59,576 bases of DNA, taken from the NCBI RefSeq assembly GCF_000787835.1, contig NZ_BBPP01000047.1, forward strand, positions 1-59,576, in the 5' to 3' direction. The notes beneath the pieces were generated by a model. That model saw only the letters and a program-made list of their open reading frames with translations. It had not been told where the DNA came from and ran no database searches. The translations under genes were made by a program, and so were the position numbers. Positions within the stretch are counted from its first letter, which is position 1. Each line of letters opens with the position of its first letter. This DNA comes from Streptacidiphilus melanogenes (GTDB taxonomy: Bacteria; Actinomycetota; Actinomycetes; Streptomycetales; Streptomycetaceae). Below are positions 16,982-23,761 of this stretch, piece after piece.

Positions 16982-17267
16982 GAACTCCTAACAGAATGGC
17001 CAAGTCGGGACAAAGTTTGGTCCGCCCGCGCTGACCTCTGCCTCAGTCCGCGTGCTGACCGGGTTTCCTCGGCCCGGCGTAGGAGCGGGCCGAGGCGGGC
17101 GCCGTACTGTCCCTGACGGGCGCCTGCTCGATGAGATCCGCCTCGGTACGGGCTGGCATTGCACTGCCGCGTTCTTCCGACTGCGCCGAGGAGTAGCGAC
17201 CGGTCAACGCGGGCGAGATCAACCGCTGATCCGCGCACTGCTTCGGTCATCTTCTAGGGTCGTCCGT

Positions 17268-17729
17268 ATGATGATCGACACTGGGGTCGCCGACTCGCTC
17301 TTCGAATCCCTCCAGGCGGACGCCCTCACCAGCCCAGACCAGCTGCGCGAGCTCTACCCGCAGCCGAACCCGAACTCGCTCCGTAAGGAGATCGACCGCC
17401 TGACCGAGGAGTCCCGGGCTCTGATCGGCTGTTCCTCGCTGGTGTTCATCGGCAGTGCGGACGTCGAGGGCCGGTCAGACGTGACGCCGCGTGGCGGCCC
17501 GGCCGGGTTCGTCTCGGTACTCGACGAGCGGACCTTGGTCATCCCCGATGCGACCGGCAACAAGCGACTCGACACCATGCACAACCTGCTGCAGACCGAA
17601 CGCGTCGGACTGCTCTTCCTCATTCCCGGCCGCCCGAGCACGCTGCGCGTCAATGGCCGAGCCTGCGTCTCGGCGCGCCCGGAGCTGCTCGCCCAACTCA
17701 CGCCGGTCGTGTCCCTTGATGTGGTGTAG
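17268..17729 (+). pseudogene. Flavin-nucleotide-binding (PPOX-fold) protein, 3' end lost
   Basis: ATG 17268 starts a protein with LTEESRALIGCSSLVFIGSA, DVTPRGGPAGFVSVLDERTL, IPDATGNKRLDTMHNLLQTE and LFLIPGRPSTLRVNGRA, the pattern of the pyridoxamine-phosphate-oxidase-like flavin-binding family. It ends abruptly at TPVV followed by six residues encoded by the IS256 terminal repeat, which begins at 17711. The C-terminal 50 or so residues are missing and do not resume to the right of the IS (20734 on), so the flank has been rearranged. Confidence 0.8.
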
Positions 17730-17733
17730 CCGA

Positions 17734-18939
17734 TCAACCAGCGGTCGTGTTGGTGGTGTTGGGTAGCGCGGGGGCGCTATCGGGGAGCTCGGGGTAGAGC
17801 TGCTCCATGCTGCCCTCGGGCAGGTAGCGGCGGGGGAAGGCGATCCACTCGTCGTGCAGCTCGAACAGCACGGCGGTGACCAGCCGCAGCAGCGCGTCGT
17901 CGTTGGGGAAGACCTGGACGACGTCGGTGCGGCGTTTGACCTCGCGGTTGATCCGCTCGAGCGGGTTGGTCGACTGGATCTTCTTCCAATGTCGCTCCGG
18001 GAAGGCAGCGAACGCGGTCAGGTCGTCCTTCGCGTCCAGCAGCATCTCCTTGACCTTCGGGAACTGCTTGCCGAGCATGTCGGCGACCGTGTCGAGCTGG
18101 GTGCGAACCGCGTCCGCGGTGGACTGGGCGAAGATCGTGCGGATCGTCGCGGCGACCATCTCGCCGGCTTCCTTGCTGATCACGGCGAAGGTGTTGCGCA
18201 GGAAATGGACCCGGCAGCGCTGGTAGGCGGCGCCGAGCATGATCTTGCGGATGGCCTTGACCAGCCCGAGGTGGTGGTCGCCGATGACGAGCCGGACGCC
18301 GGTCAGGCCGCGTTCGCGCAGGTGACGGAGGAACTCGGTCCAGAACAGTTCGGTCTCGCTGTCGCCGACCATCACGCCGAGGACTTCGCGGCCGCCGTCC
18401 TCGGCGATGCCCGTGGCGATGACCACGGCCCGGGACACGATCTGGTGATCGACTCTGGCCTTGCAGTAGGTCGCGTCCAGGTAGACGTAGGGGAAGCGGA
18501 CGTGGTCCAGGGCCCGGGTGCGGAACGCGGTCAGCTGGCCGTCCAGGTCCTGGCAGATGCGGGAGACCTCGCTCTTGGAGATCCCGGTGTCGGCTCCGAG
18601 GGCCTTGACCAGGTCGTCGACCGAGCGGGTGGAGACGCCGTGGACGTAGGCCTCCATGATCACGGCGTAGAGGGCCTGGTCGATGCGGCGTCGCCGTTCC
18701 AGCAGGACGGGGAAGAAGCTCCCCGAGCGAAGCTTGGGGATCCCCAGCTCCAGGTCGCCGGCCTGGGTGCTGAGGGTCTTGTCGCGGTGGCCGTTGCGGA
18801 ACGTGGTCCGGGCGTCGGTGTGCTCGTTCCACTCGGCACCGATCCTCGCGGTGGCCTCGGCCTCGATCAGTTCCTGGAGCATCCGCTCGGCCACACCGCG
18901 GACGAGTTCGAGACCGTCCGCCGAACGTAGACACCTCAC
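17734..18939 (-). pseudogene. IS256-type transposase, main fragment
   Basis: This fragment carries the mutator-type core: ERMLQELIEAEATARIGAEW, LELGIPKLRSGSFFPVLLER, VHGVSTRSVDDLVKALGAD, then FPYVYLDATYCKAR (Asp), VRLVIGDHHLGLVKAIRK (Asp) and STNPLERINREVKRRTDVVQ (Glu). The apparent GTG start at 18939 and its first four codons come from the inserted IS110 end. The true sequence starts with the CGT codon at 18927. The first 15 residues are encoded on the far side of the IS110 (20548-20592). Joined, they give a 412-residue transposase with no other defect. Confidence 0.9.
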
Positions 18940-18951
18940 GGGGATAGCGCG

Positions 18952-20178
18952 TCAAGCTGCCGCGAAAAGTGGTGTGGGGAAGGCGATGTCTTCGTCGAAC
19001 GGTTCGTGCTTCTGGAGGCAGTGGTAGAGCTGCCCGAGCAGGCGATTGAAGAGGTTCCTCTGGGCGGCCGCGTGCCAGTCCCCGGCTTCCCGCCGGCGAC
19101 GGTAGTGCCCGTTGGCACCTGGTGATGCGCTGATCGCGGAGAAGGCCCAGAGGTAGCCGGCGTGGTTGAGCCGGTCGTTCTTCACCCAGCGTCTGGTGAT
19201 GCTCGACTTCTTCCCCGACGCCCGGGTGACCGGGGACGCGCCAGCGTAGGCCTTGAGGCCGCGGGCGTCGGCAAATCGGGTGTGGTCGTCTCCGATCTCA
19301 GCGAGGATCCGGGCGCCGAGCTGGGTGCCGAGCCCGGGGAAGCTCAGGATCACTTCGGCGTCCGGATGCTGTGGGAAAGCCTCGTTCACCGCCTCCGCCA
19401 GTTGGTCGGCGGCAGTGCAGGTGGCGTCCAACTGCCGCAGTAGGGCGAGCATCTGCTTGCCCAACGCGTCCTCGACCAGAGCGGGCTGGTGGGCGTACCC
19501 ACCGTGGAAGACAGCGCGGATCCGGTCGGCTTCGGCGTCGATGCCACGCTGCCGCCCTGCCCTCTTGAGCGCGGATCGGATCTGGTTGAGGGAGAGCCGG
19601 GCGGCCTTCGTCGGTGTCGGGGCAAGCGCGAGCAACTGCCGGGCTTCAGGCCGGCAGAGGCCGTTCTGCCAGGTGGCGAAGGCGTCCAGGGCAGCGGGGT
19701 AGTACTCGCGCAGCAGCGAGCGGAGCTGGTTGGACAGCTGCTGGCGGTTCCAGGTGGCGTCCTGTTGGGCACGGGCCAGGACTGCGATCGCGCGGCCCAG
19801 GTCGCTGTCGTTCGGGAGCGGCCGATGGGCGTGCATGTCCGTGCGGAGGATGTTCGCGAGGACCAGGGCGTCACCCGGGTCGGACTTCTTGCGGGAGACG
19901 GCGTGGCGGTCGCGGTAGCGGGCGGCGGCCATCGGGTTGATGGCGTAGACCTGCCGCGTGCCGGTCCGCAGCACGGCGACGAGCAGCCCGCGGGAGGTCT
20001 CGATGGCAATCGGGATCGGGTTCTCCTCGCTGTCGCCGTGGTCAGCCAGGAGGTCCAGTAGTAATCGGTAGCCAGCCGCGTCGTCGGTGATGTGGCGTTT
20101 GGCCAGCAGTTTGCCGGTGTTGTCGACGAGGGCAACGTCGTGCGTCTTCTCCGCCCAGTCGATGCCGCAGTAGATCAA
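18952..20178 (-). CDS. IS110-family RNA-guided recombinase (DEDD)
   Basis: The 408-residue protein has the RuvC-like N-terminal domain: GIDWAEKTHDVALV (Asp7), IPIAIETSRG (Glu60) and SRKKSDPGDALVLANILRT (Asp100, Asp103). A coiled linker follows, then the Tnp domain with ILSFPGLGTQLGARILAEIG and KAYAGASPVTRASGKKSS, where Ser315 or Ser321 would be the serine nucleophile. It appears intact. It would act with the bridge RNA encoded just upstream (20229-20490) to join element ends and target at a shared CT-containing core. The start is ATG 20178. Confidence 0.93.
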   Translation of the reverse strand: MIYCGIDWAEKTHDVALVDNTGKLLAKRHITDDAAGYRLLLDLLADHGDSEENPIPIAIETSRGLLVAVLRTGTRQVYAINPMAAARYRDRHAVSRKKSDPGDALVLANILRTDMHAHRPLPNDSDLGRAIAVLARAQQDATWNRQQLSNQLRSLLREYYPAALDAFATWQNGLCRPEARQLLALAPTPTKAARLSLNQIRSALKRAGRQRGIDAEADRIRAVFHGGYAHQPALVEDALGKQMLALLRQLDATCTAADQLAEAVNEAFPQHPDAEVILSFPGLGTQLGARILAEIGDDHTRFADARGLKAYAGASPVTRASGKKSSITRRWVKNDRLNHAGYLWAFSAISASPGANGHYRRRREAGDWHAAAQRNLFNRLLGQLYHCLQKHEPFDEDIAFPTPLFAAA

Positions 20179-20228
20179 GATGTTCTCCCGAGAGTGCAGA
20201 TGTTCGCGCTGGTCACGAGCACTTGCGG

Positions 20229-20490
20229 GCCACGCGTCGCACTAATCCCAGGCCTCGACCATGCGGCGGTCGGGCCGACACCTCACGAGCCATTCGTGGC
20301 ACCAGCGCACCGCGCGGGTCTCGGTCTGCGCGGGAGCTCGGAGGCTCTCGTGCGGCAAGGGATCACCGTGCAGTGGGCTCGTATCACAAACGTCAACGAG
20401 TGAGCCGGAAGAAGAGTTTGGTGTGAGGCGCCGGAGGTGCCGATCTACGTATGGGCCTGACTGGCCTGTGACTCCAAAGGCCTGCCTCCG
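20229..20490 (-). ncRNA. Putative IS110 bridge RNA with readable guide segments
   Basis: On the minus strand, 5' to 3': stem CGGAGG (20490-20485); UGGAGUCAC (20476-20468), identical to the left half of the actual target; hairpin GGCC-AGUCA-GGCC; ACGUAG (20450-20445), complementary to the right target half CTACGT; closing stem CCUCCG (20437-20432). Further on: stem GCCACG (20300-20295); CGUGAGGUGUC (20287-20277), identical to the element's 3' end; hairpin CGACC-GCCGCAU-GGUCG; GGAUUAG (20248-20242), complementary to core plus left end CTAATCC; closing stem CGUGGC (20234-20229). The order target loop, then donor loop matches known IS110 bridge RNAs. Ends are approximate. Confidence 0.85.
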
Positions 20491-20547
20491 ACGCCTCTCG
20501 GGCGATCACCGCCCAAGCGGCTGCCGCAGCAACCGTTAGCACCGGAT

Positions 20548-20592
20548 TAGTGACTCCAGCAGTCGCAGTAAGTCATGCTGGGACAGGGCCAC
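20548..20592 (-). pseudogene. First 15 codons of the interrupted IS256 transposase
   Basis: AGGAGG followed 6 bases later by GTG (20592) opens MALSQHDLLRLLESL, ending with the CTA codon at the IS110 junction. Joining this to the CGT codon at 18927 gives ESL-RSADGLELVRGVAERM, a continuous IS256 N-terminus. This fixes both the IS110 insertion point and the original start codon. Confidence 0.9.
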
Positions 20593-20733
20593 CCTGCACC
20601 TCCTGAGTTGAACTGGCCGTTCACTTCGGAGAGTTGCATGGTGGCCCGCCCTGCGGGCAGGGAGCAGAGACCACGCAGGGTCACGCCCCCGGCGTACGCC
20701 TGAGCCGTGATCGGCTACACCACTTCAAGGGAC

Positions 20734-21031
20734 GCGATCCCAAGCGCAGCAACTGACACCCCACCGCCCCGACATACGCCGTTACCCAGGAGGAGCATCG
20801 CCTGGTCCGGGACTCAGCACGCGCTGCGCTCCCCCGAGTACCGCGCCGACACCCGGGACGCCTTCGCGACTATCGCACGAAGGCCGCCGACTACTACGGG
20901 CCCCTCGGTCTCGCCAACCGGCTCGCTCCGTGATGTCCTACCCGATCCGTGCGGGCAAGCCGACAGGGCCATGCGAGCGCCTGGTACCCGGCCGCGGTTT
21001 GCTGCCCCCTGACTCTGGTTACGCGCTCACC
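20734..21031. other. Remnant DNA right of the IS256, no assignable gene
   Basis: One frame, ending at a TGA at 20935-20937, reads HRLVRDSARAALPRVPRR and later DYRTKAADYYGPLGLANRLA. It has no start and no family that I recognise. It may be the tail of a gene cut by the IS. The last 90 bases before 21032 would hold the promoter of the DUF2231 gene, but I see no clear -35/-10 pair. Confidence 0.3.
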
Positions 21032-21610
21032 ATGGACACCACTGCCGCGACCAGCGCTGACGTCCCGCACGACCAGCCGGTGCGGCGGGCCCTCGACTCG
21101 CTGGACGGACTGACCCCGCTGGATCCGCTCGCTGCGCTCATGCGCCGCGCCATCACCAGCACAGCCCTGGCCCCTGTCCGAGACACGCTGCGCGGGGACT
21201 GGCTGGGACACCGACTGCATCCGGCGCTGGTCCAGCTCCCCATCGGCTGCTGGACCAGCGCGGCCGTGCTCGACCTCCTCCCCAGCGAGCGTCGGGCGGC
21301 GACCGGTCTGATCGCCCTCGGACTGTTGACCGTCCCACCCACCGCTCTCACCGGCTGGATCGACTGGGCCGATCTACCGCCCGAGCGCCAGCGCGCCGGA
21401 CTGGTCCACGCCACCACCAACCTCACGGCCATCGCGCTCTACACCGCGTCGCTTTGCGCCCGGACCCGGGGCCGCTGGGCCCGCGGGCGCACGCTGGCCT
21501 GGACAGGCCTGGCCGTGGCCTCGGTCGGCGGAGCGATCGGAGGACACCTGGTCCATCGCGAGCCCAGTAACGCTGACGGGATGGACAGCCCGTCCGGCGC
21601 GACGGGCTGA
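21032..21610 (+). CDS. DUF2231-type membrane protein
   Basis: ATG 21032 begins a 192-residue protein. After a hydrophilic N-terminus comes DWLGHRLHPALVQLPIGCWT, the conserved GHxLHPxLVxxPIG signature of the DUF2231 membrane family. Three or four membrane segments follow (ATGLIALGLLTVPPTALTGW, TTNLTAIALYTASLCART, LAWTGLAVASVGGAIGGHL). The first His pair and the later GGHLVHR could bind metal or heme. The function of the family is unknown. It probably sits in the cytoplasmic membrane. Confidence 0.8.
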   Translation: MDTTAATSADVPHDQPVRRALDSLDGLTPLDPLAALMRRAITSTALAPVRDTLRGDWLGHRLHPALVQLPIGCWTSAAVLDLLPSERRAATGLIALGLLTVPPTALTGWIDWADLPPERQRAGLVHATTNLTAIALYTASLCARTRGRWARGRTLAWTGLAVASVGGAIGGHLVHREPSNADGMDSPSGATG

Positions 21611-22099
21611 CAGCCGGGCTGACGGCCCGTCTGCGAACTCCGGAGTGGACGTTGCCACCGAACCTTCGTGGCGGGACCGACCGTGGAGACGGCCGTGCAC
21701 AGCGCGGTCGCGGATCTCCTGATCGCGCTGCTGGCGATCAGCGCGGTGCGCGAACGGGCGGAAGCCAGACGCCGGGCGGCCTCTAGAGTCGCCAACGTCG
21801 CGGCCGGAACTGACGGCGCGGGGCAGCCAAGCCCGCATGGTGCCGCCCGTCGGCGCACATGCGGTCCACGCCCACGAATGGCGCAATACCGGGCGGACGG
21901 CTGAGCCCCTCCTAGGGTCGGCGGGGTGACCGTCCAGCGCCAGCTGGACGCGGCCACACGGATCCAGCATCACGACAAGACAGCGTGGCGTTGTCTTGAA
22001 GGATCAGCCGGTGGCCGTTCTCCTATCCCAGGACTCACTCCGACGCCGAAGCAAACCCCCGGATCCGGCAGAACCCGTACACCACCTCAAAGGACTCAA
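21611..22099. other. No supported gene
   Basis: A GTG-started frame of 78 codons at 21668-21904 (VETAVHSAVADLLIALLAIS, then an Arg-rich part) lacks a ribosome site and a recognisable family. The rest is Arg/Pro-rich in every frame. The stretch looks like degraded accessory DNA between the DUF2231 gene and an IS fragment. Confidence 0.3.
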
Positions 22100-22430
22100 C
22101 CCCCGGCGCACTTGGGCCGCCAGGTGCGTGCGTGGAGCCGCCGCATGAGATCGCGGTGCCACCGCAGCGCCGTGTCCGGGCGGACGAGCAGCCGCAGCCG
22201 GTGCAGGAACTCCCGCGGCAGCGGCACCAGCAGAGCCGCCAGGAACGCGCGATCCAACGGAGAGAACGTCACCTTGTACCCACCGAGCTGTCGTTCAAGG
22301 ACCGCGATTTTGGTGGCGCAGAACGAGGATCTCCGCGTCCTTCTCGCGGTCGCTCATCGGCAGCAGTCGCAGGGCGGCGAAAGCGTGGGAGACGGCAAGG
22401 TAGAGTGATCATCTCGCCGTAACTCCAAGC
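22100..22430 (-). pseudogene. N-terminal fragment of an IS3/IS481-like integrase
   Basis: The minus strand encodes YLAVSHAFAALRLLPMSDRE followed by KDAEILVLRHQ in one frame, and then IAVLERQLGGYKVTFSPLDR with VRPDTALRWHRDLMRRLHAR in another. This is the start of a common streptomycete integrase-type transposase. A one-base shift near 22310 breaks it, and the catalytic core is absent. It is a dead remnant next to the IS30 element. Confidence 0.7.
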
Positions 22431-22508
22431 AACCTCTGACCGGGCGGATGCAGGCGCACAGTTGGCGGCTGTCAACGCTTCGCGAAAAGTGACCCTCTGG
22501 CAGTCCTT

Positions 22509-23761
22509 GGATTCTAAAGCTTGTCGCAACATCCGTGATCATGATGGGTGTGTTGATGGGCATACAAGGGCGCAAGCGTCGGCTCGATCTGGAGGCGGAG
22601 TACTGGCGCCTGCTGCAGTCCGGGGTCGGCACGGTCGAGGCCTGCAAACTGGTCGGGATCGGGAGGAAGACCGGCTACCGGTGGCGGGCGGAGAACGGAG
22701 GCCTGCCGCCCGAGCGGGTGCCTGAGGCCGAGCACTCAGGCCGCTAACCTGTCGCTGCTGGAACGCAAGCGCATCGCGACGCTGCGGGAACGCGGCCTGA
22801 CCATGACGGAGATCGCTTCCCGGATCGGCCGGTCGACCTCCACGGTCAGCCGTGAACTGCGCCGCAACATGCTCGAACACGACAAGGGTGTCTACGACGC
22901 CAACATGGCTCACCACCGCTCCCGCGAGCGGGCTACCCGTCCGCGCCGGCCGAAGCTGCAGACCGACGCCGAACTCCGCGCCGAGGTCCAGGCCAAGCTC
23001 GACCTGGAGTGGAGCCCGGAACAGATCGCCGCCCACCTGCGCATCCGGTGGCCGGACCAGCCGGACCGGCACCTGTGCCATGAGACCATCTACCGCGCGC
23101 TCTACCAGGGCGCCAAATACACCCTGAGCAGGACCTTGACGAAGAAGTTGCGGACCGGCCGGGCCCTGCGCAAACGCCGCCGCAGCGGCAGCGCGCGGGC
23201 TCCGCGGTTCCAGACGCCGGCCACCCCCATCCACGACCGCCCTGTCGTCGTCGAGCTGCGCGAGCGCGTGGGCGACTGGGAAGGCGACCTCGTCGTCGGC
23301 CGCGGCAACAAGTCCGCCGTCGCCACACTGGTCGACCGCTGCACCCGCCTGCTGCGGCTGGTCCCGCTGCCCGACGGACACGACTCCGCGAAGGTCTGCA
23401 ACGCCATCACCGCCGCGATGGCAACTCTCCCCGGACAGGCACGGATGACGCTGACATGGGACCAGGGCACCGAGATGGCCCGCCACCACGAACTGGCACC
23501 CCTGTTCCAGGACGGAGTGTTCTTCGCCTATCCAGCCAGCCCCTGGCAGCGCGGCACCAAAGAGAACACGAACGGCCTGCTGCGGCAGTACCTGCCCAAG
23601 GGCACTGACCTCTCCGTCCACACCCACGAGGAGCTACGCGCGATCGAGGACCGTCTCAACAGCCGGCCCCGAAAGACGCTGGGATGGCGAACTCCAGCTC
23701 ACGCGTTCGCCGCCGCTCTGACAGCATGAGACCAGCAACGTTGCGACGATCATGCGAATCC
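22509..23761 (+). mobile_element. IS30-family element
   Basis: The imperfect terminal repeats are GGATTC-N8-GTCGCAAC at the left (22509-22530) and its inverse at the right (23740-23761). Between them is one transposase in two frames (22556-23729). The length of about 1250 bp is normal for IS30. No target duplication could be assigned with confidence. Confidence 0.75.
22556..23729 (+). pseudogene. IS30-family transposase with one frameshift
   Basis: From ATG 22556 the first frame gives MGIQGRKRRLDLEAEYWRLL and the N-terminal helix-turn-helix (GVGTVEACKLVGIGRKTGYR). It hits TAA at 22744 where the family expects SGRYLSLLERKRIATLRERG. The remainder continues in another frame with EIASRIGRSTSTVSRELRRN, the Asp motif RVGDWEGDLVVGRGNKSAV, MTLTWDQGTEMARHHELAP and the Glu in TKENTNGLLRQYLPKG. 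One inserted base in CGCTAACCTG explains the break. A programmed +1 shift is possible but not supported by any known slip site. Confidence 0.85.

Follow-up and report, generated by a model that had tools for sequence, protein, structure and literature searches.

Tandem target-binding loops in putative bridge RNAs of IS110 elements related to one from Streptacidiphilus melanogenes

The IS110 element and its putative bridge RNA

The window analyzed here, which is the whole of a 59,576-nucleotide (nt) stretch of the Streptacidiphilus melanogenes genome (contig NZ_BBPP01000047.1), contains an insertion sequence of the IS110 group, and the non-coding DNA in front of its recombinase gene appears to encode a bridge RNA. 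The bridge RNA of IS621 is described with a single target loop and a single donor loop (PMC11208158, PMC11208160). The window element likewise has one target loop, and in most of its relatives this loop is repeated in tandem, with different repeats fitting different insertion sites. The features of the locus are as follows.

18931-20550, minus strand: IS110 element, 1,620 base pairs (bp) with one CT core counted in; ends set by the empty site in a congener (locus L258)
18952-20178, minus strand: IS110 recombinase gene, 408 amino acids, TTG start; Pfam DEDD_Tnp_IS110 and Transposase_20
20425-20497, minus strand: target-binding loop; covariance model R1, E 5.7e-11 (its 32 seed rows include the window), and covariation
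20468-20476, minus strand: left target guide TGGAGTCAC; 8 nt of the left target plus the core C, 8/8 to the left flank 20558-20551
20445-20450, minus strand: right target guide ACGTAG; complements CT-ACGT, matching the core and four of the first five bases of the right flank
20301-20424, minus strand: linker with a conserved hairpin resembling the target loop; alignment A7 and consensus fold
20229-20300, minus strand: donor-binding loop; covariation across 62 sequences
20277-20287, minus strand: left donor guide CGTGAGGTGTC; equals the right end of the element, 18940-18930
20242-20248, minus strand: right donor guide GGATTAG; complements CTAATCC at the left end
20551-20558, minus strand: left half of the target, TGGAGTCA; empty-site comparison
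18921-18930, minus strand: core CT and right half of the target, ACGTTCGG; empty-site comparison

The element belongs to the IS110 group by its recombinase domains, its match to a model of RNA-guided transposases, its non-coding left end that holds the RNA loops and its CT core. In the related IS1111 group the RNA is carried in the right end, 3' of the gene, whereas the loops of the window element lie 5' of the gene. Its borders read ..TGGAGTCA-CT-AATCCGG at 20550 and ..CCGTGAGGTGT-CT-ACGTTCGG at 18930, and no further copy was found in the assembly of its own genome (107 contigs). The recombinase passes the NCBIfam model NF033542 'IS110 family RNA-guided transposase' (188 bits, cut-off 140), and a weak match to TIGR_Tas (35.7 bits) falls below the cut-off of 100. 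A PDB search with the single sequence gave no match, whereas a 13-row profile retrieved IS621 (8wt6, E 8.7e-12) and also ISCro4. Residues D7, E60, D100, D103 and S321 are invariant across the 13 aligned rows, and S321 pairs in the profile alignment with a serine of IS621, which is S241 by residue count.

A first-pass annotation, made from the sequence alone, had proposed that an IS110 bridge RNA lies here and that its guide still records the site that the element entered. All guide and closing-stem strings that it named were recovered where it had placed them on the minus strand, including the closing stems of the target loop (CGGAGG at 20490-20485 with CCTCCG at 20437-20432) and of the donor loop (GCCACG at 20300-20295 with CGTGGC at 20234-20229). 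The string that it offered for comparing insertion sites gave the shared core as TA and needed correction, the core being CT (TGGAGTCA-CT-ACGT). Both parts of the proposal held up: the recombinase passes the model for RNA-guided transposases and the guides of relatives track their targets and element ends, and the guides in the window fit the occupied site, whose empty form exists in a congener. The annotation had named two findings that would speak against it, other genomic copies at sites foreign to the guides and a lack of conserved structure among homologs. Neither was seen: the homologous elements have a structure in common, and most of them occupy sites fitting their guides.

The isolated target loop folds well below shuffled sequences (z -4.28, 0/200 as good). 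The isolated donor loop (z 0.08) and the whole 272-nt stretch (z -0.61) were no better than shuffles in folding energy, and covariation was therefore taken as support instead. A search of Rfam at E up to 1 over 17500-23000 gave no bridge-RNA match, the one match being on the opposite strand with 27.6 bits against a cut-off of 50. The linker hairpin has a target-like anatomy (GAGC..GCTCC, about 5 nt, AGACCG), and its guide-like parts vary little among the sequences of alignment A7. No insertion fitting these parts was noticed, no systematic test having been made, and the hairpin is possibly a fixed structural copy of the target loop.

Conservation of loops and guides

A search of a genome collection gave 179 confirmed stretches, from which 80 relatives were kept. 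Alignment A2 comprised the window and 31 of 43 gene-proximal target loops, the other 12 having been excluded by hand, mostly as near-copies or odd ones. Across the 32 aligned target loops, 90.8% of cells were paired and 16 of 20 pairs showed two-sided changes; none of 500 shuffles was as good on any of five measures. For the donor loop (62 sequences), 96.5% of cells were paired and the covariation score was reached by 0/500 shuffles. On two lesser measures some shuffles did as well: 11 of the 500 in the count of pairs with two-sided changes and 6 in the count of pair types. The donor guides follow the element ends across relatives. In the right donor guide, the variable base corresponds to the left end for 82 of 83 distinct elements; in the left donor guide, the variable triplet corresponds to the right end for all 49 elements counted, not all of which were distinct.

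Tandem target loops in relatives

Covariance model R1, which was built solely from the 32 gene-proximal target loops, detected additional target loops upstream of the proximal one in most relatives. Two sets were examined, with cut-offs of E 0.05 in set 1 (150 of 152 matches aligned) and E 0.1 in set 2. Set 1 comprised 81 places (the window and the 80 relatives), of which 68 had a left junction and loops, representing 58 non-redundant elements. Set 2 was drawn from 297 genomes of the family, 60 of which had a match (including the window's own), giving 82 rows; 79 were used (the window itself and two cut-off rows of genome G211 were left out), nine were already in set 1, and 33 of the remaining places had a left junction as well as loops, representing 28 non-redundant elements, or 29 when the right flank was also counted. 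Set 2 is a different draw of genomes for the same subfamily, and it includes near-relatives of elements in set 1.

One, two, three and four loops were found in 13, 31, 13 and 1 of the 58 non-redundant elements of set 1, respectively, so that 45 had two or more; the same was true of 24 of 29 in set 2. The window element gave a single R1 match, that is, one target loop as in published bridge RNAs, and is an ordinary single-address member of the known kind. Because each of the several loops of a relative has its own left and right guides, most relatives carry a small array of addresses, and on sequence grounds these look like natural multi-target guide arrays. The arrays precede one donor loop, and loop starts are 83-131 nt apart (median 96, 109 intervals). 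The regular spacing, single orientation and single donor loop suggest one leader transcript. The loops would be made as one RNA, and several of them may be usable at the same time. These features do not decide against the alternative in which the loops are real guides but are produced as separate RNAs, or are separated by processing, and so do not form a single array. In IS621 the target and donor loops of a given complex are probably supplied by different RNA molecules (PMC11208158), which favors that alternative; we regard it as unlikely, although it deserves to be kept in mind.

Tandem loops are also present in other relatives. Four relatives on Streptomyces plasmids (L266-L269) have 3, 1, 3 and 2 R1 matches, and those from Arthrobacter and Paenarthrobacter (L263 and L264) have two each. 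The last two sit just upstream of an annotated parB-family gene (plasmid); by eye, the loops of each pair have a common left guide and right guides that differ, by one base within the first five, and such a pair could hedge against variants of the target. A Rhodococcus relative has a single weak R1 match in the right place (E 0.053), and no R1 match was found in a Pseudonocardia relative.

Agreement between guides and occupied sites

Junctions were located by the end motifs CTAATYC and GAGGTGTCT and their variants, independently of the guides, whose register was set by the anatomy of the loop. In 46 of 58 non-redundant elements of set 1 and 18 of 29 of set 2, the best loop agreed with the left flank at seven or eight of eight bases. 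Of the 36 and 17 elements, respectively, with both junctions known, 26 and 10 had a single loop fitting both flanks (at least 7/8 on the left and at least 4/5 on the right). When targets were swapped in from elements with unrelated guides, no such joint fit occurred in 63,439 comparisons for set 1 or 28,671 for set 2 (0/92,110 together). It is hardly credible, then, that the agreement is coincidental or that the guides were copied from the flank after insertion. Published reprogramming shows that guides determine targets (PMC11208160, PMC11187229), and copies with no more than one internal difference at unrelated sites share their guides, so that the guides were not copied from the flank.

Fits were not confined to the loop next to the gene. 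Among multi-loop elements with a left match of at least 7, the best loop was a non-proximal one in 21 of 35 (set 1) and 10 of 15 (set 2), and loops at every array position were seen fitting real insertion sites.

In four genomes, copies with zero or one internal difference lie at different sites, each fitting a different loop. S. acidiscabies has three copies without a difference over 1,832 nt (L008, L009 and L010). Two of them, L009 and L010, are at sites that suit the proximal loop (left 7/8 and 8/8; right 5/5), and L008 is at one that suits the upstream loop (left 8/8, right 5/5). The NBC_01481 copies L031 and L032 show a single difference over 1,842 nt; the site of L031 fits the proximal loop (8 left and 4 right matches) and that of L032 the third (8 left and 5 right). 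In the other two genomes no difference was seen inside the element over the stretches compared. For the G221 pair, L173 lies at a site fitting the proximal loop (8 left and 4 right matches) and L174 at one fitting the upstream loop (8 left and 5 right). Of the G107 copies, L178 is at a site of the middle loop, and both L179 and L180 are at sites of the distal loop (8 left and 5 right matches for all three); at L181 the distal loop fits on the left (8), with only 3/5 on the right. The pattern is not general among multi-copy genomes, as all four copies in NBC_01446 fit the proximal loop. The uninterrupted site of L174 is present in G461, where it reads CCTACAGC-CT-ACGG and the two flanks of L174 adjoin (left 93.7% identical over 300 nt, right 94.2% over 259 nt, aligned from the 18th base). 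In L178-L181, more than 500 nt separate the recombinase gene from the right end, compared with 26-62 nt in set 1, measured over the 46 elements whose right end was located.

It should be noted that a number of results weigh against tandem loops as working guides. Left-only fits of at least 7 also arose by chance in the control, in 163/63,439 comparisons for set 1 (0/28,671 for set 2). No loop found by the model had at least 7 left matches in 12 of 58 and 11 of 29 elements, and 10 of 36 and 7 of 17 failed the joint two-flank test. L011, L020 and L051 reach 6/8 only; L052, L041, L042, L053, L064, L164 and L172 are near misses or unexplained, as are the 65-75% identical relatives L193, L198, L199, L201, L202, L209 and L224; and L059 and L077 match different loops on their left and right flanks. 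Loop counts vary with the model threshold (the identical L023 and L024 score 3 and 2), and one R1 match in L202 (19.1 bits) is doubtful. The upstream loops show more divergence: from 53 of them RNAalifold recovered just seven pairs, all seven with two-sided changes. The upstream loop of L008 on its own folds no better than shuffles (139/200 as good); the two-loop stretch of L008 folds better than shuffles (z -4.74).

Some of the misses could be explained. In L022 and L171 a fitting loop is present and was overlooked by the model, and L165 fits with a one-base shift. In L016 and L047 the fit is at the outer left end, whereas the script had used the inner left-end motif; the outer motifs give 7/8 for L016 and 8/8 for L047, both of which are still counted as misses. 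The site of L027 fits a loop that is absent from L027, seemingly lost, and present in its relative L031.

The divergence of the upstream loops also bears on the possibility that only the gene-proximal loop works and that the others are dead relics of duplication. That some upstream loops fit no known site and that loop number is labile on the tree (see below) speaks for it as well. We nevertheless consider it very unlikely, given the frequency with which a non-proximal loop is the best one in both sets and the identical or one-base-apart copies that fit different loops in four genomes. The window most likely contains an IS110-group bridge RNA from a subfamily whose target loop is modular and repeatable, occurring one to four times ahead of one donor loop (probability about 0.9).

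Gain and loss of target loops

Loop number is labile. On a quick tree of 85 recombinases, with loop counts that depend on the threshold, the distinction between one and two or more loops required 13 changes, and the smallest strongly supported clade around the window (support 97) holds five two-loop rows besides the window itself; the sister clade closest to the window element is a two-loop one. L059 and L077, in each of which the left flank fits one loop (8/8) and the right flank nearly fits the other (4/5), probably arose by recombination between two copies.

In L016, L044, L047 and L266 the left end 5' of the recombinase gene is partly duplicated, with two left-end motifs or a repeated left-end stretch. 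Such duplication, as if by insertion into, or recombination with, a loop region of the element's own kind, is a possible route to the gain of loops. It would also be expected if the arrays were remnants of IS110 elements nested in each other's left ends. Most elements, however, carry a single left-end motif within the searched stretch, located at the outer border, and the site that the upstream loops fit is the one at this border and the right end, so that nesting as a general account seems improbable in the extreme.

It is likely that a widespread branch of actinobacterial IS110 elements has naturally multiplexed bridge RNAs, in which two to four interchangeable target modules serve one donor module. 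The target modules would be gained, lost and passed between elements, giving each element several alternative homes and letting it change its addresses one module at a time.

Proposed mechanism and comparison with known systems

In IS621, the target loop and target DNA sit in one recombinase dimer, and the donor loop and donor DNA in another (PMC11208158). By analogy, one dimer of the present recombinases would bind a target loop and target DNA, a second would bind the donor loop and the junction of the circular element, and target and donor would be recombined at CT. A multi-loop leader might then offer several alternative target complexes to one donor complex, and the loops probably directed the insertions observed. 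An array would fit such a scheme mechanically, given that an IS621 complex probably draws its two loops from separate RNA molecules. If this is correct, the target specificity of RNA-guided recombinases would come in stackable natural modules, which would account for the presence of one IS110 element at unrelated sites, provide a natural design for multi-target bridge RNAs and make the evolution of guide arrays tractable in a system other than CRISPR and TIGR.

The window element resembles IS621 in its DEDD and Transposase_20 recombinase, the RNA 5' of the gene, the target and donor loops with left and right guides and the CT core. Its recombinase is remote in sequence from that of IS621 and matches it by profile only, and, unlike IS621 with its one target loop, most relatives of the window element carry two to four in tandem. 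Many relatives of the IS1111 group have diverse structures and multi-loops that bind the donor, and this group has subterminal inverted repeats of 7-17 bp (PMC11208160). The seekRNA element ISEc21, found in IS3-family transposase genes (PMC11187229), is likewise of IS110 type with an upstream RNA and a target in the transposase gene of another insertion sequence, the host gene being of the IS3 family there and of the IS256 family in the window. The available text on the seekRNA elements ISEc11 and ISEc21 describes no tandem loops (PMC11187229), in contrast with the relatives studied here. TIGR-Tas is similar to the arrays of the relatives in its repeated guide modules and related RNA-binding fold, and differs from IS110 elements in that its RNA-guided DNA targeting takes place without transposition, as far as the accessible part of the report goes (PMC12045711). 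A 2026 review describes two loops per bridge RNA (PMC13199778). No description of tandem target loops was found in the open-access literature searched, preprints and most subscription papers being outside its scope; tandem target loops fitting different insertion sites are thus a variant that we did not find described there.

The insertion site and the interrupted IS256-family element

The window element lies within another insertion sequence, with the following features.

17707-20737, minus strand: IS256-family element split by the IS110 element; Pfam Transposase_mut, inverted repeats and the intact relative L258
17707-17736 and 20708-20737: terminal inverted repeats of the IS256-family element

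An uninterrupted IS256-family element in a congener (genome G009, locus L258) is 98.3% identical over 1,416 nt to the joined flanks of the window and reads ..CTGGAGTCACTACGTTCGG.. across the empty site, which is also present in the more distant L261. Comparison with the empty site of L258 shows that the IS110 insertion is exact at the CT core, with no further duplication. The insertion point is in the 5' coding part of the IS256-family transposase gene (..DLLRLLESL/RSADGLELV..). No other perfect copy of the target was found in the genome of the window; nine sites, all with 2 mismatches, were present, compared with 17 for a reversed control pattern.

The IS256-family host (window 17700-20745) has inverted repeats, but no obvious target duplication could be seen by eye. 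An open reading frame at 17052-17729 extends into the end of the interrupted element. On the Pseudonocardia plasmid pFRP1-1, another place where IS110 and IS256 are neighbors, an IS110 relative (L265) is flanked by two copies of an IS256-family transposase gene with the same protein accession.
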